Shown: one piece after another, positions 22,282 through 63,013 of the stretch
Layout: every line of letters begins with the position of its first letter
Position numbering within the stretch: the stretch's first letter is position 1
From: Acidimicrobiia bacterium
GTDB lineage: Bacteria > Actinomycetota > Acidimicrobiia > Acidimicrobiales > Poriferisodalaceae
Direction: 5' to 3'
DNA: 64,000 nt
Assembly (NCBI GenBank): GCA_022821985.1
Contig: JAJECP010000037.1
Span: forward strand, 62,001 to 126,000
Program-made: the position numbers and the translations under genes
The notes under the pieces: model-generated
The model's input: only the letters and a program-made list of their open reading frames with translations
Databases searched by the model: none
Told to the model about the DNA's origin: nothing

Positions 22282-23181
22282 TTGCGCCACGCCAAGTCGG
22301 ATGCGCGTGGCTCACGCCACGCCGAACTGATCGGTTGGTGGCGGGCCGAGCGACGGGACCTGCCGTGGCGGCACACGCGAGATCCGTGGCTCGTGCTGGT
22401 CTCGGAGGTCATGCTGCAGCAGACCCAGGTGGATCGGGTGCTGCCGTACTTCGAGGCGTTCGCTGAGCGCTGGCCGACGCCGGAACATTTCGCGGCGGCG
22501 GAGCTGGCCGACCTGCTTGCTGCTTGGCAAGGACTGGGCTATCCGAGGCGCGCCCGCAACCTCTGGCAGGCGGCGGCGATCATCACCGAACGGCATGGGG
22601 GCGGGGTACCCACCGATCTCGACGACTTGCTGGCGCTGCCCGGAGTGGGTCGGTACACGGCACGTGCAGTGCAGGCCTTCGCCTTCGGCATCGACACCGG
22701 TGTGGTGGATACCAACGTGGGCCGCATCCTGGCCCGCTGGCAGGGCCGCCGGCTGAGCCCGCGGGAGGTCCAGCGCATCGCTGATGATCTGGTTCCCGAA
22801 GGGGAGAGCTGGGCGTGGAACCAAGCGATGATGGACCTCGGCGCCCAGGTTTGCACCAAGCGAGACCCGAACTGTGCCCGGTGCCCGGCGCAGCGGTGGT
22901 GTGCGTGGGGGAGCGTGGTCCTGGACTCGGAGTTTTCGGGGCAGCCAGATCCGGCCGACCGCAGCGCCGGGGTCAGTGCGCGGCAAGCACCGTTCGAAGG
23001 CAGCGACCGCCAGGCCAGGGGCCGCCTGCTCGCAGCAATGTCAACCAGCGACATCGAGCGTGCGGGCGCCGCTGACGCCATGCATCTCGAGCGCGACGAA
23101 GCCCGGGCTCAGCGCCTCGTCGAAGAGCTGATCGCCGAAGGCTTGATCACCGCAGTCGGCGACCGGATCCGCCTCGGCTAA
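22282..23181 (+). CDS. mutY: A/G-specific adenine glycosylase MutY, short form
   Basis: A 299-residue DNA glycosylase that removes adenine opposite 8-oxoguanine. The catalytic Glu lies in S-E-V-M-L-Q-Q-T-Q-V, the helix-hairpin-helix is L-P-G-V-G-R-Y-T-A-R-A, and catalytic Asp is in V-D-T-N-V. A [4Fe-4S] loop follows with four cysteines spaced C-x6-C-x2-C-x5-C (C-T-K-R-D-P-N-C-A-R-C-P-A-Q-R-W-C). The C-terminal NUDIX-like domain of standard MutY is absent, replaced by about 70 residues resembling a small winged-helix end. The TTG start at 22282 is uncertain because the first codons overlap a hairpin repeat. Confidence 0.88.
   Translation: MRHAKSDARGSRHAELIGWWRAERRDLPWRHTRDPWLVLVSEVMLQQTQVDRVLPYFEAFAERWPTPEHFAAAELADLLAAWQGLGYPRRARNLWQAAAIITERHGGGVPTDLDDLLALPGVGRYTARAVQAFAFGIDTGVVDTNVGRILARWQGRRLSPREVQRIADDLVPEGESWAWNQAMMDLGAQVCTKRDPNCARCPAQRWCAWGSVVLDSEFSGQPDPADRSAGVSARQAPFEGSDRQARGRLLAAMSTSDIERAGAADAMHLERDEARAQRLVEELIAEGLITAVGDRIRLG
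22305..22322 (+). repeat. GCGTGGC hairpin repeat, copy at the 5' end of mutY
   Basis: A perfect 7-bp stem GCGTGGC/GCCACGC with loop TCAC. The same stem occurs in the convergent-gene gap at 26378, with a shorter 5-bp relative at 26351. Confidence 0.6.
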
Positions 23182-23202: not shown

Positions 23203-23229
23203 AGCTCGTAGCTCAAGCAGCTACGAGCT
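23203..23229. terminator. Inverted repeat between mutY and the selenoprotein gene, probable bidirectional terminator
   Basis: A perfect 11-bp inverted repeat AGCTCGTAGCT / AGCTACGAGCT with loop CAAGC, placed between convergent genes. The right arm encodes the last codons of the selenoprotein. There is no clear U-tract, as is common in high-GC actinobacteria. Confidence 0.6.
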
Positions 23230-23731
23230 GTTCGATCAGCTCGTCGAAGGCCTTGTCGGCGATGGCGACCATCTCGTCGTCGGTGCGGTCCTGGATGGGA
23301 TGCTCCACCCACACGGCCGCCGGGTCGAAGCCGAGCGCCTTGCCCTGCACCTCGGCCCCGTCGACGAACTGGACGGTGGCGACGAACACCGACGGGATGC
23401 CGCGGCGTTCCAGATCAGCGATGTCGTGCACACTGCACGACGTGCAGCTGCCTCAATCGGCTAGCGCTTCGATCACCACGTCGCACTTGGTGGCGATCTC
23501 GTGGCGCAGGTCGACTGGGGCCGGCTTGGTGAACGTGGGCTTGGAGTAGCGCTCGACGCGCAGGCCCCGCTCGGTCAGCCGTTCCTCGAGCCGGTTCAGG
23601 AAGCGGTCGCCGCGGGGCTTGCTGATGTCCAGCAGGCCCACGGTGAGGCCGTCCAGCGAATCGGGCCGGGTGACCCGTTCACGATGGGCGGGTGCCGCTT
23701 CGTTCGTCGGGTCCAAGACGACAGTGCTCAT
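23213..23731 (-). CDS. UGSC-motif selenoprotein (in-frame UGA read as selenocysteine)
   Basis: A 172-residue protein if the TGA at 23453-23455 is read through as Sec93. The frame is continuous on both sides and reads A-L-A-D-U-G-S-C-T-S-C-S-V-H-D, the diagnostic U-G-S-C motif of a known (seleno)protein family. Homology-like sequence continues after the UGA (I-P-S-V-F-V-A-T, G-F-D-P-A-A-V-W-V-E-H-P), so the UGA is not a true end. An 8-bp hairpin begins 11 nt after the UGA. The start at 23731 has an AGGGGGGA site. The biochemical role of the family is not established, but the Sec/Cys cluster suggests thiol or peroxide redox work. The CPTC protein gene lies 73 nt upstream on the same strand. Confidence 0.85.
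23423..23441 (-). promoter_or_regulatory. Putative bacterial SECIS hairpin of the UGSC gene
   Basis: On the coding strand GTCGTGCA and TGCACGAC form an 8-bp perfect stem with loop GTG. The stem begins 11 nt after the UGA and the loop is 19 nt after it, with G first in the loop. This is the spacing expected of SelB-binding SECIS elements. Confidence 0.65.
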
Positions 23732-23804
23732 GTGGTCCCCCCTGTGTTGGATCCGGTGGGCACGTCCTGATCGACTGTAGCCGCCCGGTGTCCAGGTGGC
23801 CCTG

Positions 23805-25316
23805 CTAGCGCCAGGGATCGATCTCGACGCAGACGGGCTGAGCGCCGACCTCGCCGTTCACCCAGCCGCCGATGACCGCCGAGAACAGCCCTGCGCCGCC
23901 GCCGCAGTGCACCAGGTGCAGGCCTCCCTCACGGAACTTCGGCAGATCGGCTTCGGCCAGAAAATCGGGCACACCCTCGGCGATGCCGTCGGCGCCGCGC
24001 ACCAGCTCGGAGCCCGGTCGGGTCGTCAGCTCGTTGATGCGGTCAGCAGTCTGCTGGCGCGTCCAGCCGCTGTCGATGAACACGCGGGAATGGTCCGGCG
24101 CCACCGCCAGGATCGCATCGAAGCCAAGCACCAGCTTCGGGTGATGGATCGCATTGAGCGACGCAGCCAGGGTGCGGGCCAGCGACTCGGGATCGCGAGA
24201 GAGCTGGTCGACCACCGAGCGGGGCGCCTCGCCCGGGAAGGCCGTCACAGCGTTGGTGCCGGCTTCGAAGCCGAAGTCAGTGCACAGCGGGTCCCAGCCG
24301 CTGCCCCCGGGTTCGTCGGTGCTGCCGTCGGCAGCGGCTTCGATCTCGGCGAAACAGAAGCCCACCTTGCCGGGCTGGCCGAGCGCCGCCCGGTCCACTT
24401 CGCCGGGGCGTCCGCCGCCCACGTTGCGAACGATGAGCTGCACCGCCCGGCCGATCGTGCTGTTGGCCCGGTTGCCCTGGCCGAACACGTTGATCCCGTT
24501 GTTCATGCCGATCTGGCGGGCGATCGGCCCGTTCACGATGAACACCGGCCCGACCGGCATGGTCGTGGCGAGCATCCCGTGCATGTTGAACGTGTCGTTG
24601 CACACGGCGGTCAGCGCTGCGAGCACGACCGGGAAGTACTCGGGCCGGCAGCCGGCCATCACGGCGTTGACCGCAGCCTTCTCGACGGTGCAGTCGGCGA
24701 GATCGGGCGCGACGTTGGCCACCACCTCGTCGGGGGCACGCGACGTGCCTGCCAGCATCGCTGCGACTCGCTCAACGGTCGGCGGCACCAGCGGCAGGCC
24801 GTCCGACCAGCCCCGGTCGAACATCGCCTCGTGGGCGTCTTCCTGGCTGCCGAACTCGACGCGGCGAGCGCTCAGGCCCGAGCCGCCGAAGCGAGCCTCC
24901 AGGGCGTCGACGTGGGCGGGATCGACCGACAGCGATCCGCAGCCGGGACGATGTTCGGGCAGACCGGCGCCCAAGCTGCCGAGTCCGCTGAACGATTCCC
25001 ATTCGCGTCGGGACCACCCCACGATGCGGCCGGCTTCGCCGCCGTCGGCGAACCGCATCAGCGTCGGCACCGTCTCGATGTCGTGATGCCACGAGAAGCC
25101 GAGGTCGGCGTCGTGCACCCTGGCTGCGACCGCCTCGGGAAAGGCAGGATCGTCCTGGGTGAACACGGTCAGCGAGCCTCGGGATTCGATGTCTGCCAGC
25201 ACCGGCGCGATGAGTTCGCACGTCGGGCAGTCCCGCTTCACCACGGCCACCAAGCCGTTCCGCGGCACGCTCGCCGCCGCGTCGTCGGCCGTGTTCCCGT
25301 CAGCGCTCGAAGCCAT
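23805..25316 (-). CDS. Thioredoxin-like (CPTC) protein with large conserved C-terminal domain, partner of the UGSC selenoprotein gene
   Basis: A 503-residue protein. Residues about 18-110 look like a glutaredoxin/thioredoxin domain with a C30-P-T-C33 motif in V-V-K-R-D-C-P-T-C and a later cis-proline-type segment E-T-V-P-T-L-M-R-F. Residues about 160-503 are a separate domain (W-S-D-G-L-P-L-V-P-P-T, A-G-C-R-P-E-Y-F-P-V-V, G-P-I-A-R-Q-I-G-M-N-N-G) of unknown activity. It is transcribed towards the UGSC selenoprotein, so a joint redox role is inferred. The ATG at 25316 has a leaderless -10 box. Confidence 0.65.
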   Translation of the reverse strand: MASSADGNTADDAAASVPRNGLVAVVKRDCPTCELIAPVLADIESRGSLTVFTQDDPAFPEAVAARVHDADLGFSWHHDIETVPTLMRFADGGEAGRIVGWSRREWESFSGLGSLGAGLPEHRPGCGSLSVDPAHVDALEARFGGSGLSARRVEFGSQEDAHEAMFDRGWSDGLPLVPPTVERVAAMLAGTSRAPDEVVANVAPDLADCTVEKAAVNAVMAGCRPEYFPVVLAALTAVCNDTFNMHGMLATTMPVGPVFIVNGPIARQIGMNNGINVFGQGNRANSTIGRAVQLIVRNVGGGRPGEVDRAALGQPGKVGFCFAEIEAAADGSTDEPGGSGWDPLCTDFGFEAGTNAVTAFPGEAPRSVVDQLSRDPESLARTLAASLNAIHHPKLVLGFDAILAVAPDHSRVFIDSGWTRQQTADRINELTTRPGSELVRGADGIAEGVPDFLAEADLPKFREGGLHLVHCGGGAGLFSAVIGGWVNGEVGAQPVCVEIDPWR

Positions 25317-53328: not shown

Positions 53329-56031
53329 TCAGTGTGCGGAGGCGGACCAGGGGTCGGCGCTGTCGGTGGCCAGGCCGTAGCGCTTGATGGCCTCCGCCGC
53401 CGCGGTCGCATCGATCTCGCCGAGCTCGGCGAGGCGCCACAGCACCGCCACGGTGATGTGCTCGGCGGTGATCTCGAAGTGCTCCCGCAGCCGGCTGCGG
53501 GTGTCGCTGTGGCCGAATCCGTCGGTGCCCAGCGAGGTGTAGTCGCGGCCGATCCAGCGCGACACCTGATCGGGCACGGCCCGCATGAAGTCGGTCACGG
53601 CGATCACCGGCCCCATGCCGTCGGCCAGCTGCCGGGTCACGAAGGGCACCTGCTGGGGATCGTCGGGATGGAGCGTGTTCCACCGCTCGCACGACAGCGC
53701 CTCCTCGCGCAGCGCCTTGTAGGACGTGGCGCTCCACAGGTCGACGCCCACGTCGTGCTCGGCCGCCAGCAGGTCGGCGGCCGCTCGCGCAGCGCCCTGC
53801 GCCGAGCCCGAGAACAGGATTGTGCCGGAGTGGGCGCGCCCGGGCGGCGATGGGGCGTAGCGGTACAGCCCCGCCAGCAGATCTTCCACAGCGAGATCGT
53901 CGGGCTCAGGAGGCTGGACGTAGTTCTCGTTGTAGATGGTGAGGTAGTAGAAGATGTCCTCGCCCACGCCGTACATGCGCCGGATGCCGTCGCGCACGAT
54001 GGCGGCCAGCTCGTAGGCGAACGCCGGATCGTAGGCCTGGCATGGCGGCACCACCGAGGCCAGCAGCGGCGAGTGACCGTCCTGGTGCTGGAGACCCTCG
54101 CCCATCAGGGTGGTGCGACCCGCCGTGGCCCCCATGAGGAAACCGCGCCCCCGCATGTCGGCCAGCGCCCAGATCATGTCGCCGACCCGCTGGAAGCCGA
54201 ACATCGAATAGAAGGTGTAGAAGGGCACCATCGCCACGCCGCGAGTGGCATACGACGTGGCCGCGGCGGTGAAGCTGGCCAGCGCACCCGCCTCGGTAAT
54301 GCCCTCCTCGAGGATCTGACCGTCGATGTGCTCGGTGTAGGACAGCAGCAGGTCGTGATCCACCGGCTCGTACAGCTGCCCCTGGCTGGCGTAGATGCCC
54401 AGTTCGCGGAACAGCGAGTCCATGCCGAACGTGCGGGCCTCGTCGGGAATGATCGGCACCACCCGGTCGCCGAAGCCCGGCTCACGCGTCATCGCCCGCA
54501 GCATCCGGGTGAACGCCATGGTGGTCGACACGGCCATCTCGCCCGACCCCGCCGAGAATTCCTCGAAGGGTTTGGAGCTGGGCATCGGCAGCGCCTTGCG
54601 GCACCAGTTGCCGATGCGCTTGGGCAATGGGCCGTTGAGCGCCTTGCGGCGTGCCATGAGGTACTCGTGCTCGGCGCTGCCGGGCGCCGGCCGGCAGTAG
54701 GGCGGATCGTCGGGATCGAACTCGGCGTCGATCTCGCTGTGCAGCCGCAGTCGCTCGCGGATCGTCATGAGCTGGGTGCGGTTCAGCTTCTTGATCTGGT
54801 GGGTGGCGTTGCGGGCTTCGAGGTCGGGTCCCAATGACCAGCCCTTGACCGTCTTGGTCAGGATGACCGTGGGGCTGCCCTCGTGCTCGACGGCCGCCTG
54901 GTAGGCCGCGTACAGCTTCTTGTAGTCGTGGCCGCCGCGGGGCAGGGTCTGGAGGTCTTCATCGGAGAGGTGCTGCACCATCTCGCGCAGCCGCGGATCG
55001 GGGCCGAAGAACCGCTCGCGGATGTACTGCCCGCTCTCCACCGAGTAGCGCTGGTACTCGCCGTCGATGGTCTCGTTCATCTTGTTGAGCAGCACGCCGT
55101 CGCGGTCGCGCGCGAGCAGCTCGTCCCAGCGGCCGCCCCAGATCACCTTGATCACGTTCCAGCCCGAGCCGCGGAAGTTGGCCTCGAGCTCCTGGATGAT
55201 CTTCCCGTTTCCGCGCACGGGACCGTCGAGCCGCTGCAGGTTGCAGTTCACCACGAAGATCAGGTTGTCGAGCCGCTCGCGGGCGGCGAGGTGCAGCGCG
55301 CCGAGCGTCTCGGGCTCGTCGGTCTCGCCGTCGCCCACAAAGCACCACACCTTCGATTCGGACGTGTTGTCGATGCGGCGGTTGTGGAGGTAGCGGTTGA
55401 AGCGGGCGTGATAGATGGCGGTGATCGGCCCGAGGCCCATCGACACCGTCGGGAATTCCCAGAATTCGGGCATGAGTCGTGGATGGGGGTACGACGACAG
55501 GCCGGTGCGGCCGATCTCGCGCCGGAAGTGCTCGAGGTCGGTGTCGTCGAGGCGGCCTTCGAGGTAGGCCCGGGCGTAGATGCCCGGCGCCGCATGACCC
55601 TGGATGTAGATGTGGTCGCCTGGCTCGCCGTCGTCCTTGCCGTGCCAGAAGTGGTTGAAGCCCACGTCGTAGAGCGCTGCGGAGCTGGCGAAGGTGGACA
55701 GGTGGCCGCCGATGCCGTCGGCCCACGAGTTCGCATGGGTCACCATGGCCACGGCGTTCCAGCGGATGAAGGCCCGCAGGCGCTTCTCGATCTCCTCGTC
55801 GCCGGGGAACCACGGCTCGTCTTCAGGAGCGATGGTGTTGATGTACGGGGTCGAGACGGTGGCGGGGAAGTCGACCTGCATCTCGCGGGCCTTGGACATG
55901 AGCCGCCGGATCAGGAAACGTGCGCGGTTCTTGCCCCGTTCCTCGACGACTGCCGCGAACGACTGCAGCCAATCGTCGGTCTCATCAGGGTCGATATCGG
56001 GGATCTGCTCATGCAACCCGTCGAAGAGCAT
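53329..56031 (-). CDS. aceE: Pyruvate dehydrogenase E1 component, homodimeric type
   Basis: A 900-residue TPP enzyme decarboxylating pyruvate and acetylating the E2 lipoyl group. The TPP/Mg motif is V-G-D-G-E-T-D-E-P-E. H-A-N-S-W-A-D-G-I-G-G-H-L-S, G-H-A-A-P-G-I-Y-A-R, P-D-E-A-R-T-F-G-M-D-S-L-F and G-L-Q-H-Q-D-G-H-S define the AceE class. Length matches the family (about 890-930). It is the E1 of the lipoate block, with E3 and E2 genes 2.4-5 kb away on the other strand. It shares a short divergent promoter region with the RNase H gene. Confidence 0.95.
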   Translation of the reverse strand: MLFDGLHEQIPDIDPDETDDWLQSFAAVVEERGKNRARFLIRRLMSKAREMQVDFPATVSTPYINTIAPEDEPWFPGDEEIEKRLRAFIRWNAVAMVTHANSWADGIGGHLSTFASSAALYDVGFNHFWHGKDDGEPGDHIYIQGHAAPGIYARAYLEGRLDDTDLEHFRREIGRTGLSSYPHPRLMPEFWEFPTVSMGLGPITAIYHARFNRYLHNRRIDNTSESKVWCFVGDGETDEPETLGALHLAARERLDNLIFVVNCNLQRLDGPVRGNGKIIQELEANFRGSGWNVIKVIWGGRWDELLARDRDGVLLNKMNETIDGEYQRYSVESGQYIRERFFGPDPRLREMVQHLSDEDLQTLPRGGHDYKKLYAAYQAAVEHEGSPTVILTKTVKGWSLGPDLEARNATHQIKKLNRTQLMTIRERLRLHSEIDAEFDPDDPPYCRPAPGSAEHEYLMARRKALNGPLPKRIGNWCRKALPMPSSKPFEEFSAGSGEMAVSTTMAFTRMLRAMTREPGFGDRVVPIIPDEARTFGMDSLFRELGIYASQGQLYEPVDHDLLLSYTEHIDGQILEEGITEAGALASFTAAATSYATRGVAMVPFYTFYSMFGFQRVGDMIWALADMRGRGFLMGATAGRTTLMGEGLQHQDGHSPLLASVVPPCQAYDPAFAYELAAIVRDGIRRMYGVGEDIFYYLTIYNENYVQPPEPDDLAVEDLLAGLYRYAPSPPGRAHSGTILFSGSAQGAARAAADLLAAEHDVGVDLWSATSYKALREEALSCERWNTLHPDDPQQVPFVTRQLADGMGPVIAVTDFMRAVPDQVSRWIGRDYTSLGTDGFGHSDTRSRLREHFEITAEHITVAVLWRLAELGEIDATAAAEAIKRYGLATDSADPWSASAH

Positions 56032-56037
56032 GGGTTC

Positions 56038-56044
56038 TAGTGTC
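56038..56044. promoter_or_regulatory. Overlapping divergent -10 boxes (aceE minus, RNase H plus)
   Basis: TAGTGT on the plus strand (56038-56043) lies 9 nt before ATG 56053. On the minus strand GACACT (56039-56044) lies 7 nt before ATG 56031. The two boxes share five base pairs. Confidence 0.4.
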
Positions 56045-56052
56045 GCACTTGG

Positions 56053-57117
56053 ATGAGCCAGAAATCGAACGCGCCAGCGCGAGAGGTCTTCACCGACGGG
56101 TCATGCCTGGGCAATCCAGGTCCGGGCGGCTGGGCCTACGTGGTCGACGGCGGGCCGTGGGCCTGCGGCTTCGAGCCCTCCACGACGAACCAGCGCATGG
56201 AGGTTGCGGCCGCGGCGCAGGCCGTCGAGGACCTGGACGGGCCGCTGCGCGTCGTCAGCGACTCCACCTACGTGGTGAAGTGCTTCACCGATGAATGGTG
56301 GAAGGGCTGGCACCGGCGCGACTGGCTGAACACTGCGAAGAAGCCGGTGGCCAACCGCGACTTGTGGGAGCCGTTCATCGACGCCGTGCTGGCGCGGGGC
56401 GATGTGACGTTCGAGTGGGTGAAGGGTCATGCAGGCCAGCGGCTGAACTCCGCTGCCGACGCGCTGGCTGTGCATGCTGCGGGGGCAGGTGCCGGCCAGA
56501 GCGGCAACCGGTTCGACGATGACGTGCTCGATCGGCTGAGCGACCCGCGTTCGGCGCCGCACCGCCCGGCGAAGGGTGCCGTGAGCACCGACGAGCCGAC
56601 GTCGGGGAACCGGGAGATCACCGGTCACGCGGTGGCTGTGCTGGGCCACCGGCCGCCGGAGCTCGGCGGCTACAACGAGAACCCGGTCTCACGCAAGGTG
56701 CTCCGGCAGCTGAGCGACGTCATTGCGGCCAAGCGCGAGCTGCATCCCGATCTCGTCGTAGCGACGGGCCTGGGGCTCGGCGCCGAGACCCTTGGTGCTG
56801 AGGCTGCGCTCGCGGCCGGTGTGCCCTATGTGGCGGTGCTGGCATTCGAGGGCGTCGAGCGGCGGTGGCCGGGGCCGTCACGCCAGCGGTTTGCAGAGCT
56901 GCGCCAGCGTGCAGAGCAGGAATTCGTGCTCGCGAACCGCGTGCCGGCGGACACCGAGGCATTCGGCAAGGCGATGCGTCGCCGGGACACCTGGTTCATG
57001 CACAACTGCGACGAAGCCGTGCTGGTTCGCCGCGCTGACGACCGCACGCTGGGCGATCTGAACCGGCGCCTGGAGGATGCGCTGGACGATGTCTGGGTGA
57101 TCGAACCCGGCGACTAG
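56053..57117 (+). CDS. RNase HI fused to a SLOG/YpsA-like domain
   Basis: A 354-residue two-domain protein. RNase HI occupies about 10-140: catalytic Asp15 in F-T-D-G-S-C, Glu50 in N-Q-R-M-E-V, Asp70 in V-S-D-S-T, Asp136 in N-S-A-A-D-A, plus K-G-H-A. It would degrade RNA in RNA-DNA hybrids. A linker of about 45 residues leads to a Rossmann-like SLOG domain (192-340) with A-V-L-G-H-R-P, G-L-G-L-G-A-E-T-L-G-A-E-A-A and A-F-E-G-V-E-R-R-W. This resembles YpsA/DUF1273 proteins, predicted to sense or cleave nucleotide-derived ligands. It converges with the SRPBCC gene, sharing a CTAG stop. Confidence 0.85.
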   Translation: MSQKSNAPAREVFTDGSCLGNPGPGGWAYVVDGGPWACGFEPSTTNQRMEVAAAAQAVEDLDGPLRVVSDSTYVVKCFTDEWWKGWHRRDWLNTAKKPVANRDLWEPFIDAVLARGDVTFEWVKGHAGQRLNSAADALAVHAAGAGAGQSGNRFDDDVLDRLSDPRSAPHRPAKGAVSTDEPTSGNREITGHAVAVLGHRPPELGGYNENPVSRKVLRQLSDVIAAKRELHPDLVVATGLGLGAETLGAEAALAAGVPYVAVLAFEGVERRWPGPSRQRFAELRQRAEQEFVLANRVPADTEAFGKAMRRRDTWFMHNCDEAVLVRRADDRTLGDLNRRLEDALDDVWVIEPGD

Positions 57118-57572
57118 TCGCCGTCGACGGGGGTCTCGACGAGTGCGGCGAGCCGCTCGAGCGTCTTTTCCATGTTCGGCACGTTCTTGCGGGGGGCTCC
57201 GAAGAGGACGATGCCCCACTTGAACTTCGCGGTGGACCAATCGAAGGTCTCGCGTACCAGCGTGCCGCCGTCGGGCTGGGGTTCGAGCCGGTAGCTCCAA
57301 CGCTGGCCCTGCCAATGCGCCCACGTGATCAGGCGGTCATCTTCGAACTCCAGCACCCGGTTCTTCACGGTGTACGGGACGGCCATCCTGACGCGCATGG
57401 AGAAGGTGCTGCCGAGCGTGAGCGGGGCCTTGCTGGTGGTCAGCTGTGCCAAGGTGCCGGAACCGTCAATCTCGCAATGACCGCTGGGATCGGTCAGCAC
57501 TGCGAAGATCTTCTCCGCAGGAGCAGCAATGAGCCGCTCCACACTTACGCTCTGCTGTTCCGACGCGGCCAT
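57114..57572 (-). CDS. SRPBCC family (START-like) protein
   Basis: A 152-residue helix-grip protein. It starts S-V-S-V-E-R-L-I-A-A-P-A-E-K-I-F-A-V-L-T-D-P with the usual P-A-E-x-V/I-F pattern, has F-E-D-D-R-L-I-T-W and ends in a long helix. Such proteins bind lipids, polyketides or other hydrophobic ligands. The ligand is unknown. ATG 57572 starts 8 nt after the selenoprotein stop, so the two are in one operon. Confidence 0.8.
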   Translation of the reverse strand: MAASEQQSVSVERLIAAPAEKIFAVLTDPSGHCEIDGSGTLAQLTTSKAPLTLGSTFSMRVRMAVPYTVKNRVLEFEDDRLITWAHWQGQRWSYRLEPQPDGGTLVRETFDWSTAKFKWGIVLFGAPRKNVPNMEKTLERLAALVETPVDGD

Positions 57573-57580
57573 GGCTGTTC

Positions 57581-58198
57581 TCAGGCGGGCGTAAGGGCGT
57601 CGTGAACGATGTCGGGCGGGGGCGTGCCGCCGCCGCGCTCGATGCTTCCGTCGGCCCGCACCAGCATCCACCTCGGCTGGTAGCTGTTGCCGAGCTGGTC
57701 CCATAGCTCGCCGTCCTCGTTGCTGAGCTGCGGGACGTCGCCGAGCTGGTGCTTGGCCACGAACTTCCGGTAGGAATCCTGGGAGTCGCCGCCCGGAACG
57801 CCCACCAAGACCAAGCTGTCGCCGTGCTCTGCCTTCAGCGCTGCGACCGCAGGCGCTTCACGGTTGCACGCCGGTCACCAAGGTGCCCAGAACCACAGCA
57901 GGACATCGTTGCCAGCCGCTGCAGCCAGATCGAACTGCTGCCCGTCGAGCAGCGCGCCCTCCAGCAGCAGGATCTCGGCCCGGGTTTCCTGGGTGACCGG
58001 GGCAGTCGTGGCTGCTGACTCGGCAGCCGCACCGGTATCGGTGCCGCCGGAGGTGGTCGCGGGCACCTCGGCAGCAGATGTCGTGGCCGCCGTGTCCCGG
58101 GACACGCTGACCTCAACGCTCCCGCAGCTGGCCAGAACGCCGAGACCTGCCAGCCCGGCCAGCAGCACGATGACCGCTCGGTACCGCGGATGCGTCAC
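57581..58198 (-). CDS. Selenocysteine-containing TlpA-like thioredoxin lipoprotein (W-U-P-A-C active site)
   Basis: A 205-residue lipoprotein if the TGA at 57875-57877 is read as Sec108. The frame is open through the UGA and reads W-F-W-A-P-W-U108-P-A-C111-N-R-E-A, which is the thioredoxin W-C-P-x-C active site with Sec replacing the first Cys. The rest of a TlpA-like fold follows (L-V-L-V-G-V-P-G, W-D-Q-L-G-N-S-Y-Q-P-R-W with cis-Pro region). The signal peptide ends at L-A-S-C with lipid Cys25 and a Ser/Thr/Ala-rich linker. It should act as a membrane-tethered thiol-disulfide reductant outside the cytoplasm. GTG 58198 is set by a leaderless -10 box. A GGUC-loop hairpin follows the UGA. Confidence 0.88.
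57837..57857 (-). promoter_or_regulatory. Putative bacterial SECIS hairpin of the TlpA-like selenoprotein gene
   Basis: On the coding strand a stem CTGC/GCAG carries loop GGTC. Below it, after one bulged C, is a second stem AGCG/CGCT. Bulge, 4-bp upper stem and GGUC loop copy the layout of the E. coli fdhF SECIS. The loop lies 26 nt after the UGA. Confidence 0.7.
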
Positions 58199-58205
58199 CT
58201 TGCCG

Positions 58206-58211
58206 AGCCTA
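58206..58211 (-). promoter_or_regulatory. -10 box TAGGCT, leaderless start of the TlpA-like selenoprotein gene
   Basis: On the minus strand TAGGCT ends 7 nt before the GTG at 58198. Confidence 0.6.
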
Positions 58212-58241
58212 TCCCTGGGTCCCGGATGCAATAGCGCGGGA

Positions 58242-58247
58242 TACATT
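58242..58247 (+). promoter_or_regulatory. -10 box TACATT, leaderless start of a 29-residue membrane peptide
   Basis: TACATT ends 7 nt before the GTG at 58255. It is divergent from the selenoprotein promoter, 31 nt between the boxes. Confidence 0.45.
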
Positions 58248-58254
58248 CAGCCCG

Positions 58255-58344
58255 GTGAGCACCCGGGCATTGATTGCTTTGGCTCTCGTGACCGGGATGG
58301 TCATCCTGATGGCGTTCGCAGTCCAGGTGCTCATCGCGCTGTAG
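58255..58344 (+). CDS. Small single-helix membrane protein (29 residues)
   Basis: GTG 58255 opens a 29-codon frame ending in TAG. The peptide starts V-S-T-R-A-L-I-A-L-A-L and continues with V-I-L-M-A-F-A-V-Q-V-L-I-A-L, a single transmembrane helix with one Arg near its N-terminus. A well-spaced -10 box precedes it. No family recognised. It could be a small membrane regulator or an unexpressed chance frame. Confidence 0.45.
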   Translation: MSTRALIALALVTGMVILMAFAVQVLIAL

Positions 58345-58409
58345 CACTGCCGTGCTCGGCCGCAGTGCATGCTGCGGGGCCGCGGTGCGAACCGGTCGGA
58401 AACGCGGCG

Positions 58410-58415
58410 TACCCT
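58410..58415 (+). promoter_or_regulatory. -10 box TACCCT before lpd
   Basis: TACCCT ends 9 nt before the ATG at 58425. No Shine-Dalgarno sequence is visible. Confidence 0.4.
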
Positions 58416-58424
58416 CGTCGCGCG

Positions 58425-59888
58425 ATGGCAGATGACACGAACACCGGCGAGACAGGCAGCCCGGTTCGGTACGACCTCGTGGTGATCGGCGGAGGCCCTG
58501 CGGGCTACGGGGCAGCCCTGTACGCCGGCGCCGCAGGCATGAGCGTCGCCCTCGTGGAACGCGACCGGCTCGGCGGCACGTGCCTGCATCGAGGCTGCAT
58601 TCCCGCCAAGGAACTGCTCGAGACAGCAGCGGTCTGGCGCACCGTCGGCGAGGCCGCCGAATTCGGCGTCAATGTCGAGCCGCCTGAGCTGGACTTCGCC
58701 GTTTCGCAGGGCCGCAAGCAGCGCATCGTCGACGGCCTCGAGACCGGGGTGAAGGGACTCCTGCGTCGCCGCAAGGTCGCGACCTACGAGGGCACGGGAC
58801 GGCTGCGTGCCGACCGTTCAGTCGAGGTCGACGCAGGCGAGTCCGGCATCCAGACGCTGCAGGGCGATCACGTGCTCCTCGCAGCGGGTTCGGTGCCAAT
58901 CACGCTGCCGGGATTCGATCGCGACGGCACGCTGGTGATGACCTCCGACGAGGTCTTGGCACTCGACGAGGTGCCGAGCCGTGTGGCCGTGATCGGCGGG
59001 GGCGCCATCGGTTGCGAGTTCGCTTCGATGCTGGCCGATCTCGGTGCCGAAGTCACCGTCCTCGAATACGCGCCGCAGATCATCCCCGGCGTCGACGCCG
59101 ACATCGCCAAGGCCCTCGCTCGGGCGTTCTCCAAGCGGGGGATCACGGTGCTGACCGGCTGCCGGGTCACCGGCCACACTCCCGATGGCAGCGGAACCAC
59201 CGTGCAGTACGAGATCGCTCCCCGCTCCGGCGACGGCGACATGACCGAAGCGTCCCTCGAGGTCGACGCCGTGGTGGTGTCGGTGGGACGCCGACCGTAC
59301 GCAGATCATCTCGGCCTCGACGGCACCGAGGTCAAGCTCGACGAGCGGGGTTTCGTAGTGGCCGACGAGATGTGCCGCACCACCATGGCCGGCGTCTATG
59401 CCATCGGCGATCTCATCAATACGCCACAGCTCGCCCATGTCGGGTTCGCCGAGGCGATCGTGGCCACGAAAGACATGCTCGGCGAAGAACCGGCGCAGGT
59501 CGACTACGCGAACGTGCCCTGGGCGATCTACTGCCATCCCGAGGTGGCGTTTGCGGGGCTCACCGAGGCGGCGGCTCGCGAAACCGGTTACGAGGTGGTG
59601 ACGTCCAAGCACCGCTTCACCGGCAACTCGAGGGCGATGATCGTCAACGACACCGAGGGCCTCGTCAAGATCGTGGCCGAGCGTGAGGCCGACGGCACTG
59701 CCGGGCGCGTGCTCGGCGTTCACATGATGGGGCCGTGGGTCACCGAGCAGCTCGGTCAGGGTTACCTAGCGGTGAACTGGGAGGCCACGGTCACCGAGGT
59801 GGCGGCGCTCGTGCAGCCCCACCCCACGCTGTCAGAGCTCTTCGGCGAGACGATGCTCTCGCTCACCGGGCGAGGTCTGCACGGATGA
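58425..59888 (+). CDS. lpdA: Dihydrolipoyl dehydrogenase (E3)
   Basis: A 487-residue FAD disulfide oxidoreductase that reoxidises dihydrolipoyl groups using NAD+. FAD site V-I-G-G-G-P-A-G-Y-G-A, redox disulfide G-G-T-C-L-H-R-G-C-I-P, NAD site V-I-G-G-G-A-I-G-C-E-F-A, G-D-L-I-N-T-P-Q-L-A-H, and the catalytic His-Glu in V-Q-P-H-P-T-L-S-E. ATG 58425 is used, and the longer upstream frame is antisense to the selenoprotein gene. E2 and LipBA genes follow, forming a lipoate operon. Confidence 0.94.
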   Translation: MADDTNTGETGSPVRYDLVVIGGGPAGYGAALYAGAAGMSVALVERDRLGGTCLHRGCIPAKELLETAAVWRTVGEAAEFGVNVEPPELDFAVSQGRKQRIVDGLETGVKGLLRRRKVATYEGTGRLRADRSVEVDAGESGIQTLQGDHVLLAAGSVPITLPGFDRDGTLVMTSDEVLALDEVPSRVAVIGGGAIGCEFASMLADLGAEVTVLEYAPQIIPGVDADIAKALARAFSKRGITVLTGCRVTGHTPDGSGTTVQYEIAPRSGDGDMTEASLEVDAVVVSVGRRPYADHLGLDGTEVKLDERGFVVADEMCRTTMAGVYAIGDLINTPQLAHVGFAEAIVATKDMLGEEPAQVDYANVPWAIYCHPEVAFAGLTEAAARETGYEVVTSKHRFTGNSRAMIVNDTEGLVKIVAEREADGTAGRVLGVHMMGPWVTEQLGQGYLAVNWEATVTEVAALVQPHPTLSELFGETMLSLTGRGLHG

Positions 59889-59927
59889 GCTCGGCGGCAG
59901 CCGCCGTGCGCCGTTCTGGGGTGCCAT

Positions 59928-61328
59928 ATGGCTGACTTGGTGCTGCCCCAGCTCGGCGAGACCGTCACCGAGGGCACCATCACTCGCTGGTTCAAGAACC
60001 CGGGTGATGCGATCTCGGTGGGCGAGATGCTCTACGAGGTGTCGACCGACAAGGTCGACAGCGAAGTGCCCTCGCCGATGGAGGGGGTACTCACCGAGAT
60101 ACGCGTCCCCGAGGGCGAGACCGTGGACGTCGGGACGGTGCTGGCGATCGTCGAGCTGCCCGAAGGCGCTGTCGCGCCGCCGCCCGACGCAGCAATCCCC
60201 GTGCCCAGTGGCGCGCCAGCAGAACCGGCTGCCGCTCCGACGGCTGCACCGGCTGAGCCGCCAGCGGTGCCCGCCGCTGCACCTGTCGCTGCGAGTGCGG
60301 CTGCTGGACGGGCCAACGGCGCAGCGAACGGGCCTGCAACCGACCATGGCAGCCACTTGCTCTCGCCCGTCGTCCGGCGCCTGGTACGAGAGCATGGCCT
60401 CGACCCTGCGGCCCTCGTGGGCACGGGCGTCGGCGGTCGCATCACCCGGTCCGATGTGCTCAACGCCATCGACGAGCGGCAACGTGCCGCAGCTGCGAGT
60501 GCGGGCCCCACGACGTCTCCGGCCAGACCGACTGCCGGCGAACGCCCTTCGGCGCCCGGTCCACCGCTTGTGCCAGCACCGGTCGCCGCCGCTGCTGCGG
60601 CTGAATGGACCGACGGCGACTCGCGCTACGAGTCGTTCAACAACATCCGCCGCCGAACCGGCGAGCACATGGTGAAGTCCATGGCCATGTCACCTCACGC
60701 CCTCACCGTCGTCGAGGTCGACTACGAGAATGTGGAGCAGGTGCGCCGGGCCCACCGCGAGGCGTGGCGGGCTGCGGAGGGATTCAGCCTCACCTACCTG
60801 CCGTTCATCGTGGTTGCCGTCGCTGACGCCCTGGCCCAATGGCCACGGCTGAACGCCTCGGTGGAGGACGGCGGCCTGCGCATCTGGCGTCGTCGCAACG
60901 TCGGCGTCGCCGTCGACCTCGACTACGACGGGCTGATCGTGCCGGTGCTGCGAGACGCCGACTCGTTCAGCCTGCGAGGCGTGGCCCGCACGATGAACGA
61001 GCTCGCGGCGCGTGCCCGGGAACGGCGCCTGACGCCCGACGACATCAGCGGTGGCACATTCACCATCTCCAACAATGGATCCTTCGGCACCTACACCACG
61101 GCAGCCATCATCAACCAGCCCCAGGTGGCTGTGCTCTCCACCGACGGCGTGGCCCGGCGCCCAGTCGTGGTCACGGACCGGTTCGGCAACGAGAGCATTG
61201 TGGTGCATTCGGTGGGCCACCTGGCGATGGGCTGGGATCACCGTGCATTCGACGGCAGCTACGCCGCAGGCTTCCTGGGCCACATCCGCCAGATGCTCGA
61301 ACAGCACGACTGGGGAGCGGAGTTCTAG
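59928..61328 (+). CDS. 2-oxo acid dehydrogenase E2 component (dihydrolipoamide acyltransferase)
   Basis: A 466-residue E2. A single lipoyl domain (1-80) has the lipoylated Lys42 in D-K-V-D-S-E-V. A Pro/Ala-rich linker leads to a peripheral subunit-binding domain (about 144-180: L-S-P-V-V-R-R-L-V-R-E-H) and then the catalytic core (about 225-466) with D-H-R-A-F-D-G-S at the active site. It could serve pyruvate, 2-oxoglutarate or branched-chain 2-oxo acids. The nearby aceE suggests pyruvate, but many actinobacterial E2 copies of this shape are shared. Confidence 0.9.
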   Translation: MADLVLPQLGETVTEGTITRWFKNPGDAISVGEMLYEVSTDKVDSEVPSPMEGVLTEIRVPEGETVDVGTVLAIVELPEGAVAPPPDAAIPVPSGAPAEPAAAPTAAPAEPPAVPAAAPVAASAAAGRANGAANGPATDHGSHLLSPVVRRLVREHGLDPAALVGTGVGGRITRSDVLNAIDERQRAAAASAGPTTSPARPTAGERPSAPGPPLVPAPVAAAAAAEWTDGDSRYESFNNIRRRTGEHMVKSMAMSPHALTVVEVDYENVEQVRRAHREAWRAAEGFSLTYLPFIVVAVADALAQWPRLNASVEDGGLRIWRRRNVGVAVDLDYDGLIVPVLRDADSFSLRGVARTMNELAARARERRLTPDDISGGTFTISNNGSFGTYTTAAIINQPQVAVLSTDGVARRPVVVTDRFGNESIVVHSVGHLAMGWDHRAFDGSYAAGFLGHIRQMLEQHDWGAEF

Positions 61329-61330
61329 CT

Positions 61331-63013
61331 GTGCGCTCCGTGCTGCAGGTGCGCTGGCTCGGGAGGGTCGGCTTCCGCGAAGCGCTCGACTTGCAGCGGC
61401 GCCTGTGGGCGCACAGCGCGGAGAACTACCTGCTGCTGCTCGAACACCCCCACGTCTTCACTGCGGGCCCGAGCGCAGACGAGGCCAACCTGCTCGTCGA
61501 CCCCGGCGACGTTGGCGCCGACTGCGTCCGCATCGACCGCGGCGGCGACTTCACCTACCACGGTCCCGGCCAGCTCGTCGGCTACCCGATCCTGACGCTG
61601 CCCGGTCGCCGCGGCGGGGGATTGGCGGAGACCTCGGCGTACGTGTGCGATCTGGAACAGGTGCTCATCGATGCGCTGGCCGACCTGGGGCTGCCCGGCT
61701 GCGGCCGCTTCCGCGGGTACCCGGGGGTGTGGCTGGATCTCGAGGGCACGCCGCGCAAGATCGCCGCCGTCGGCGTGCGCCTGAGCCGCGGCCGCACGAT
61801 GCACGGCTTCGCGCTCAACGTCAAGACGGATCTGTCGTGGTTCGAACGGATCATCCCGTGCGGCATCCGCGACTTCCGGCCGACGTCGTTGCGAGCCGAG
61901 GGTGTCGTAGCGACCATGCGCGAGGTGTCCGATGCTGTGGTCCGCCGTTCGGCCGAGCGATGGGGCAAAGCCGGCTGCGAGCGCGCGGACGTGGCGTGGC
62001 GCCACCGGCCGTCCGACCTCAGTGCCTTCAGCCGGGGCATGGGACCGGGACCACAGTCCGGACCAGTTGAGGTCTCGCCGCCGCGCAGCCGCGCGCGCTT
62101 GGCCGAAGCCGGAATCGATGGCGGTTTGCACCTCGGCGAGCGGAAGCCGTCGTGGCTGCGTGCCGGGATGGACCTGAACGATGGCTATCTCCGGCTGCGC
62201 CGGGTGATGCGACAGCACGAGCTGGTGACGGTGTGCGAGGAAGCCGGCTGCCCGAACATCTTCGAGTGCTGGGGCGCGGGCACGGCCACGTTCATGCTCA
62301 ACGGCGAGCGGTGCACACGCGCATGCGGCTTCTGCCTTGTCGACACTCGCCAGCCTGCGCCGCTCGATCCCGGCGAGCCACGCCGCGTCGCCGATGCGGT
62401 CACCGAGATGGAGCTGGATCATGCGGTGGTGACTGCTGTGGCCCGGGACGATCTTCCCGATGGCGGGGCCGCCGCGTTCGCCGAGACCATCGCTGCCATC
62501 CGGGCCCAGTCGCCGGGTACGACGGTCGAGGTGCTCGTTCCCGACTTCGGCGGCGACGCTGCCTCGTTGCAGACCGTCCTCGACGCGAGCCCCGACATTC
62601 TGAATCACAACATCGAGACCGCCGCCCGGCTGCAGCGGGCGGTGCGGCCCTCGGCGGGTTACGCCCGCAGCCTCGCTCTGCTGGCGCGCAGCGCTTCGGC
62701 GGGGCACGTCACCAAGTCGGGCATCATCGTCGGCATGGGCGAGGACGACGCAGAGGTCGATCTCACGCTGGCCGACTTGGCGGCTGTCGGCGTGAGCATT
62801 GTCACGATCGGCCAGTACCTGCGACCGACGAGCCATCACATTCCCGTCGCCCGCTGGGTGCCGCCCGAATCCTTCGAACGTTGGCGGGAGGTAGGCACCG
62901 CGCTCGGCATCGACCATGTCGAGTCGGGCCCGCTGACCCGTTCGAGCTATCACGCCGCCGAATCCGCCGCAGCCGTAGAGCTCAGCGCCCGGGCCCGTCC
63001 CGTCCCGGCCTAG
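61331..63013 (+). CDS. LipB-LipA fusion: lipoyl(octanoyl) transferase joined to lipoyl synthase
   Basis: A 560-residue single frame containing both enzymes of lipoate biosynthesis. LipB (about 1-220) has L-L-E-H-P-H-V, R-G-G-D-F-T-Y-H-G-P-G-Q, catalytic Lys143 in P-R-K-I-A-A-V-G-V and Cys177 in I-I-P-C-G-I. LipA (about 255-560) has auxiliary-cluster cysteines 302/307/313 (C-E-E-A-G-C-P-N-I-F-E-C), radical-SAM cysteines 328/332/335 (C-T-R-A-C-G-F-C) and an R-S-S-Y-H end. No stop or start codon divides the parts. GTG 61331 begins 2 nt after the E2 stop, so translation is probably coupled. Confidence 0.9.
   Translation: MRSVLQVRWLGRVGFREALDLQRRLWAHSAENYLLLLEHPHVFTAGPSADEANLLVDPGDVGADCVRIDRGGDFTYHGPGQLVGYPILTLPGRRGGGLAETSAYVCDLEQVLIDALADLGLPGCGRFRGYPGVWLDLEGTPRKIAAVGVRLSRGRTMHGFALNVKTDLSWFERIIPCGIRDFRPTSLRAEGVVATMREVSDAVVRRSAERWGKAGCERADVAWRHRPSDLSAFSRGMGPGPQSGPVEVSPPRSRARLAEAGIDGGLHLGERKPSWLRAGMDLNDGYLRLRRVMRQHELVTVCEEAGCPNIFECWGAGTATFMLNGERCTRACGFCLVDTRQPAPLDPGEPRRVADAVTEMELDHAVVTAVARDDLPDGGAAAFAETIAAIRAQSPGTTVEVLVPDFGGDAASLQTVLDASPDILNHNIETAARLQRAVRPSAGYARSLALLARSASAGHVTKSGIIVGMGEDDAEVDLTLADLAAVGVSIVTIGQYLRPTSHHIPVARWVPPESFERWREVGTALGIDHVESGPLTRSSYHAAESAAAVELSARARPVPA

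Follow-up and report, generated by a model that had tools for sequence, protein, structure and literature searches.

A 2026 review (PMC13188914) tabulates, in the part of its text that is available, Prx-like thiol:disulfide oxidoreductase selenoproteins (PF00578) with UxxC or UxxU motifs, a Redoxin family selenoprotein (PF08534) with UxxC, and a UGC-containing TlpA disulfide reductase family. As representative of the UxxC redoxins its table gives HEU0032618.1. The same text stresses the place of selenocysteine (Sec) in anaerobic metabolism. Related selenoprotein families appear in the available parts of PMC9312934, PMC2398784, PMC1794560 and PMC1088965, the first two of which also tabulate UGSC-containing selenoproteins. 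According to the accessible portion of PMC5649159, SelA and SelB occur in the majority of sponge-symbiont bins and are missing from the majority of closely related references.

The window considered here, a 64,000-nucleotide stretch of the genome of an Acidimicrobiia bacterium, contains a gene with a TGA inside its frame. Judged from sequence comparisons, this TGA very probably encodes Sec in an exported thioredoxin-like protein. The assembly to which the window belongs (G000) consists of 41 contigs and is 89.87% complete.

Gene and predicted product

The coding sequence spans 57581–58198 on the minus strand, a placement that supplies the strand missing from the preliminary description. It begins with GTG and yields, on read-through, 205 amino acids including Sec. 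The in-frame TGA (57875–57877) corresponds to residue 124 of P0001 and to residue 108 counted from the GTG. LLWFWAPW precedes it and PACNREAPAVAALKAEHG follows; the sequence after the TGA, PACNREAPAVAAL, lies within a total of 97 open codons that run up to the terminal TGA at 57581–57583. Across the 11 aligned genus loci, that final stop is TGA seven times and TAG four times. Before the in-frame TGA, the frame encodes in order a signal peptide with the lipobox L-A-S-C (58124–58135, lipidated Cys predicted at 58124–58126), a linker of low complexity and the beginning of a thioredoxin domain. With C entered for U, the read-through protein matched Redoxin (46.4 bits), AhpC-TSA, Thioredoxin_8 and Thioredoxin above the Pfam cut-offs, PF08534 being the best match. 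Frame and Pfam matches thus agree with the earlier observation of a TGA in frame after W-F-W-A-P-W and of a thioredoxin-fold remainder beyond it.

All 11 genus loci (own locus included) preserve an aligned GTG or ATG start, the frame and a lipobox, which reads LASC, LAGC, LVGC, LTGC or VSGC. By a simple rule, a lipobox is found in 70 of the 94 distinct Sec sequences and in 72 of the 86 distinct Cys sequences. From its signal peptide and LASC lipobox, the product is predicted to be a lipid-anchored, extracytoplasmic lipoprotein, as the preliminary description had also proposed.

Selenocysteine machinery

SelA (383.4 bits), SelB (273.8 bits), SelD (354.6 bits) and tRNA-Sec (66.3 bits; anticodon TCA by ARAGORN) were all found over their cut-offs in the same genome, which answers the call of the preliminary description for a check of the Sec machinery. 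The SelD match (C10:4396-5349, L010) includes one in-frame TGA, in a context read by eye as G-U-A-C-K. Because of this TGA, SelD is likely a selenoprotein itself. TGA is also an ordinary stop in this genome, ending both the predicted selenoprotein gene and the lpd-like gene beside it.

Among 148 genomes, at least 72 have a TGA-containing match among the matches listed, and each of these 72 also has a SelA match (raw genome counts, kinship ignored). In 29 others SelA is matched but no TGA form is listed, and 47 show neither. For SelA, 98 of the 101 matches counted are over the cut-off, and G107 was counted through a SelA fragment. These genome counts refer to a TGA anywhere inside the match; its placement at the active site was checked in the loci that were fetched.

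Distribution of Sec and Cys forms

The protein was matched at E 0.001 or better in 146 of the 148 genomes (own and relatives), many of the matches being other thioredoxin-like proteins with no stop inside. Of 199 loci (L019–L217; some places are included twice, and 94 Sec and 86 Cys domain sequences are distinct), 111 carry TGA as the active-site codon and the other 88 carry TGC or TGT, with no further codon seen. The UGA had been assigned earlier to the first active-site Cys of the thioredoxin motif (W-U-P-A-C), and a Sec-to-Cys comparison across related genomes had been recommended; the presence of TGA or a Cys codon at 199 of 199 loci upholds the assignment. TGA occupies the site in all 11 genus loci, and the TGA form is present in the single-contig genomes G044 and G169. 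The 72 loci L057–L128 (66 from strains, 6 from MAGs), which we take to come mostly from other actinobacterial orders, are all of the Cys form.

In a class-wide sample of 247 genomes searched at E 1e-12, 52 had a match; 38 of these carried a TGA inside it and 14 had only matches without one. Fifteen of the 38 TGA-bearing genomes fall outside the order. The spread within the class is wide but patchy. A tree of 180 rows and 124 columns, obtained by a quick search, requires at least 11 changes between Sec and Cys, five of them forced by well-supported branches. Since forks are poorly resolved and branches long, no direction of change was drawn from it.

A U-x-x-U active site, with two TGA codons nine bases apart, was seen in 3 of the 111 TGA loci: L149 (G143), L151 (G114) and L159 (G142). 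A single GGUC hairpin apparently serves both codons; L149 and L151 keep all four of its core pairs and L159 keeps three. At L193 (G184:C154:60430-61719), a stop-free Cys match and a TGA-containing match stand in tandem in one genome.

Selection was estimated from 11 genus copies (55 pairs) by pooled Nei-Gojobori counts. Omega was 0.072 over the 34 codons before the TGA and 0.185 over the 97 codons after it, so the downstream part is read as translated protein. In the same copies, pS was 0.029 in codons 1–13 after the TGA, a segment that spans the hairpin and shows zero amino-acid change, against 0.363 in codons 14–97. The low value in codons 1–13 therefore indicates a second constraint, at the nucleotide level, on the first 40 bases.

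The downstream hairpin

A bSECIS-like hairpin was located on the minus strand at 57837–57857, with the GGUC loop, single bulge and two 4-bp stems that had been described before. The loop occupies 57845–57848, the core stem 57849–57852/57841–57844 and the outer stem 57854–57857/57837–57840; the bulge is C 57853 or the neighbouring C 57852. The distance from UGA to loop is 26 nt. In fdhF this spacing is about 18 nt, so the close imitation of the fdhF SECIS that had been claimed holds as a loose resemblance.

The hairpin, AGCG-C-CUGC GGUC GCAG-CGCU, folds at -10.8 kcal/mol as a 23-nt fragment. The minimum-energy fold of a 47-nt segment is another structure and not the SECIS hairpin (z -0.32), mean folding energies are too close to tell Sec sequences (-15.2) from Cys sequences (-15.5), and Rfam at its gathering thresholds gave zero matches in the window. 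In this GC-rich window 386 TGAs are open-flanked, and 9 of them, the gene's own TGA included, are followed by a GGT-type 4-bp hairpin. Given the z-score and these nine hairpins, the hairpin alone is weak evidence, and its energy by itself was dropped as an argument. Support for the putative element is comparative, not energetic.

The four core pairs are intact in 52 of 72 distinct Sec sequences versus 1 of 78 Cys sequences. In the remaining 20 Sec sequences the full set of core pairs is missing at the usual offset: 15 show a different stem further downstream, four retain three pairs and one retains a single pair. The further-downstream stem was noted in Sec loci L133, L134, L136, L154, L155, L163, L166, L167, L174, L175, L177, L179, L183, L184 and L186. 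It is perhaps a second SECIS placement within the same protein family.

Covariation over a 7-pair helix was assessed in the 72 distinct Sec sequences against 500 shuffles. Paired cells amounted to 71.2% (shuffled, 54.5), cells changed on both sides to 81 (shuffled, 30.7) and helix covariation to 0.355 (shuffled mean, 0.113), and for each of the three measures 0 of 500 shuffles reached as high; sliding the helix partners lowered all three. Two other counts did less well: 363 of 500 shuffles had at least as many doubly changed pairs (6), and 30 had at least as many further pair types (18). The SECIS covariance check proposed in the preliminary description turned out, in three of five measures, in favour of the element.

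A covariance model was built from 35 sequences, including the gene itself (53.1 bits) and its paralogue (49.4 bits), so that both scores are those of model members. Of 15 Sec loci outside the model, some of the same genus as model rows, ten scored 35–50 bits and five 15.7–26.4 bits. Cys genes of six loci reached at most 13.6 bits, and a 48.3-bit match in L193 coincides with the second, TGA-containing gene there. The Cys loci L057–L128 reached up to 24.6 bits, which overlaps the lowest scores of the left-out Sec loci, and part of the gap between Sec and Cys scores comes from the TGA itself. Six weaker model matches (14.8 to 20.4 bits) at other places in the genome were set aside, four of them having been translated and, by eye, showing no convincing Sec gene. 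A hairpin-bearing TGA at 23043 (minus) was also dropped, its frame appearing by eye to be due to chance.

Fold and likely function

An AlphaFold2 model computed from 56 sequences, with Sec entered as Cys, has thioredoxin topology and places residue 108 directly before a helix at 109–128. Its pLDDT is at least 90 in 91 of 205 residues and below 50 in residues 1–69, and its pTM is 0.63. The best PDB matches by sequence are DsbF (3ios, E 9.3e-21) and MPT53 (1lu4, E 4.5e-18) of M. tuberculosis. The same two structures are the best matches by fold, followed by ResA. Scores from the NCBIfam models for ResA, TlpA, StoA and DsbE ranged from 31.0 to 37.7 bits, whereas their cut-offs lie between 123.15 and 230. 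Thus, of the earlier label 'TlpA-like', the thioredoxin-like part stands, and DsbF and MPT53 take the place of TlpA/ResA as nearest relatives by both sequence and fold. Since these are the nearest solved structures, thiol-disulfide exchange at the outer membrane face is the likeliest role to be predicted for the protein. Both M. tuberculosis proteins are considered to be catalysts of the oxidising type.

The genome has a DsbB match. A VKOR match was not found in it, an absence that is weak in a genome 89.87% complete. One DsbD_TM/CcdA-type match (C1:26762) lies beside a Cys-type dsbE-like match (C1:26353), which it may partner.

Genomic context

Eight nucleotides after the stop begins a gene for a Polyketide_cyc2 (SRPBCC-type) protein (57114–57572, minus; PF10604), and a gene for an RNase H protein comes next beyond it. 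Divergently upstream is an lpd-like gene (58425–59888, plus), which we take from its sequence to encode a dihydrolipoamide dehydrogenase and which tblastn matched in 27 of the 30 loci from the genus and the family. All three neighbours were matched in 11 of 11 genus loci; in the 19 family loci, lpd was matched in 16, Polyketide_cyc2 in 19 and RNase H in 16. In 89 further loci, many with short flanks, lpd was matched in 24 and Polyketide_cyc2 in 3. No exported partner was seen among these neighbours, the conserved lpd being a cytoplasmic redox flavoenzyme. Frames at 53329–63013 of the window (PDH E1-like, lpd-like, acyltransferase-like and lipB/lipA-like) presumably belong to lipoate-dependent metabolism.

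A paralogue in the same genome (L129:830-1996, C23:185119) is 50% identical over the match and carries U-P-N-C. It is lipoprotein-like, and its redoxin domain is preceded by a long linker that is acidic and repetitive. Elsewhere in the window, a UGSC-family protein with an in-frame TGA at 23455 (minus) reads from 23216 to 23857 and matches PF24696 with 149.8 bits when read through. It is perhaps the first selenoprotein implied by the preliminary description.

Proposed mechanism and alternative explanations

Frame, machinery genes, conservation, selection, covariation and predicted fold have all been established computationally; Sec insertion, export, lipidation and an oxidising rather than reducing direction are predicted. 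SelB and tRNA-Sec would insert selenocysteine at the UGA at 57875–57877, guided by the hairpin that lies just downstream in the reading frame. After export, the LASC lipobox would anchor the product by lipid to the outer face of the cytoplasmic membrane. There, U-P-A-C at the start of the active-site helix would perform thiol/selenol-disulfide exchange on exported proteins, as the Cys proteins DsbF and MPT53 do.

A single base separates the TGA from the Cys codons TGC and TGT, and the assembly to which the window belongs is in 41 contigs, as would suit an ordinary Cys gene that has either acquired a nonsense mutation or suffered an error in sequencing or assembly. Such a pseudogene or artefact is hardly credible, however, when the TGA recurs in every one of the 11 genus loci and in 111 of the 199 loci overall, single-contig genomes G044 and G169 among them, when purifying selection acts 3' of it (omega 0.185) and when the listed TGA forms occur only in genomes with a SelA match. 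It is also very unlikely that UGA is read here as some other residue, such as Trp, or passed by low-level ordinary suppression, with the short product as the main one. The stretch before the TGA could indeed make a short lipoprotein, but TGA is the terminal stop of this very gene and of the lpd-like gene, the site alternates with Cys only across the 199 loci, and synonymous freezing and covariation sit where a bSECIS belongs.

If the protein is a selenoprotein, the balance tilts towards disulfide formation, that is, towards an oxidising catalyst recycled perhaps by the genome's own DsbB. A reductase of the TlpA/ResA/CcmG type, fed by CcdA and acting in cytochrome c maturation or disulfide repair, would on the same premise be a secondary, though appreciable, possibility. 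The ResA and TlpA families match too, below cut-off, and a single DsbD_TM/CcdA-type match is available in the genome. Against this, DsbF and MPT53 are clearly better matches, the CcdA-type gene at C1:26762 adjoins the Cys-type dsbE-like match at C1:26353 as a possible partner, and a DsbB match is present.

Implications of the predicted Sec decoding

There is about an even chance that a branch of the Acidimicrobiia, which we presume to be aerobic, uses Sec in a DsbF-like disulfide catalyst outside the cytoplasm, and that this catalyst comes with paralogues, with a second placement of the SECIS and, rarely, with UxxU members whose two UGA codons, nine bases apart, share one hairpin. If true, Sec use in aerobic Acidimicrobiia would contradict the view of selenoproteins as rarely kept by aerobic bacteria. 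Genes of this kind would be split or cut short by gene callers for which TGA is a stop, so gene catalogues of these bacteria may lack a conserved family of extracytoplasmic redox proteins. The natural series of Sec and Cys forms, of UxxC and UxxU sites and of two hairpin placements would make Sec gain and loss, and SECIS spacing, directly testable. Should extracellular disulfide formation in these bacteria rely on selenium, the usefulness of Sec would extend beyond the anaerobic metabolism stressed in the available text of PMC13188914.

Comparison with known systems

Words on Actino/Actinomycet or lipoprotein were not found in the available text of PMC13188914, nor words beginning thioredoxin or TlpA in that of PMC12013277 (deep-Sep). 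Publication titles naming this selenoprotein lineage were likewise not found in a mostly title-level check covering few subscription journals.

Among Cys proteins, the DsbE-like DsbF and MPT53 of M. tuberculosis share the thioredoxin fold and the W-F-W-x-P-W-C-P-x-C motif. They differ in having Cys at the first active-site position, where Sec is predicted here, and are 33% identical in fold alignments. ResA, StoA, TlpA and DsbE (CcmG) are thiol-disulfide oxidoreductases of the same fold, but with Cys active sites and with NCBIfam scores far below cut-off. The UGC-containing TlpA family (PMC13188914, available part) and NCBIfam NF041054 (WAxxUGC) resemble the present protein in carrying Sec in a TlpA/ResA-like domain; in both the motif is UGC rather than UxxC, and P0001 scores 27.1 bits against the NF041054 cut-off of 300. 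The Prx-like and Redoxin selenoproteins in the accessible text of PMC13188914 share a UxxC (sometimes UxxU) Sec motif in a Redoxin/AhpC-TSA domain, a likeness of motif and domain. Redoxin selenoproteins with UxxC or UxxU are therefore already known, and the Acidimicrobiia proteins are a well-supported lineage of that kind, with unusual side forms in its second hairpin placement and its rare double-Sec members.
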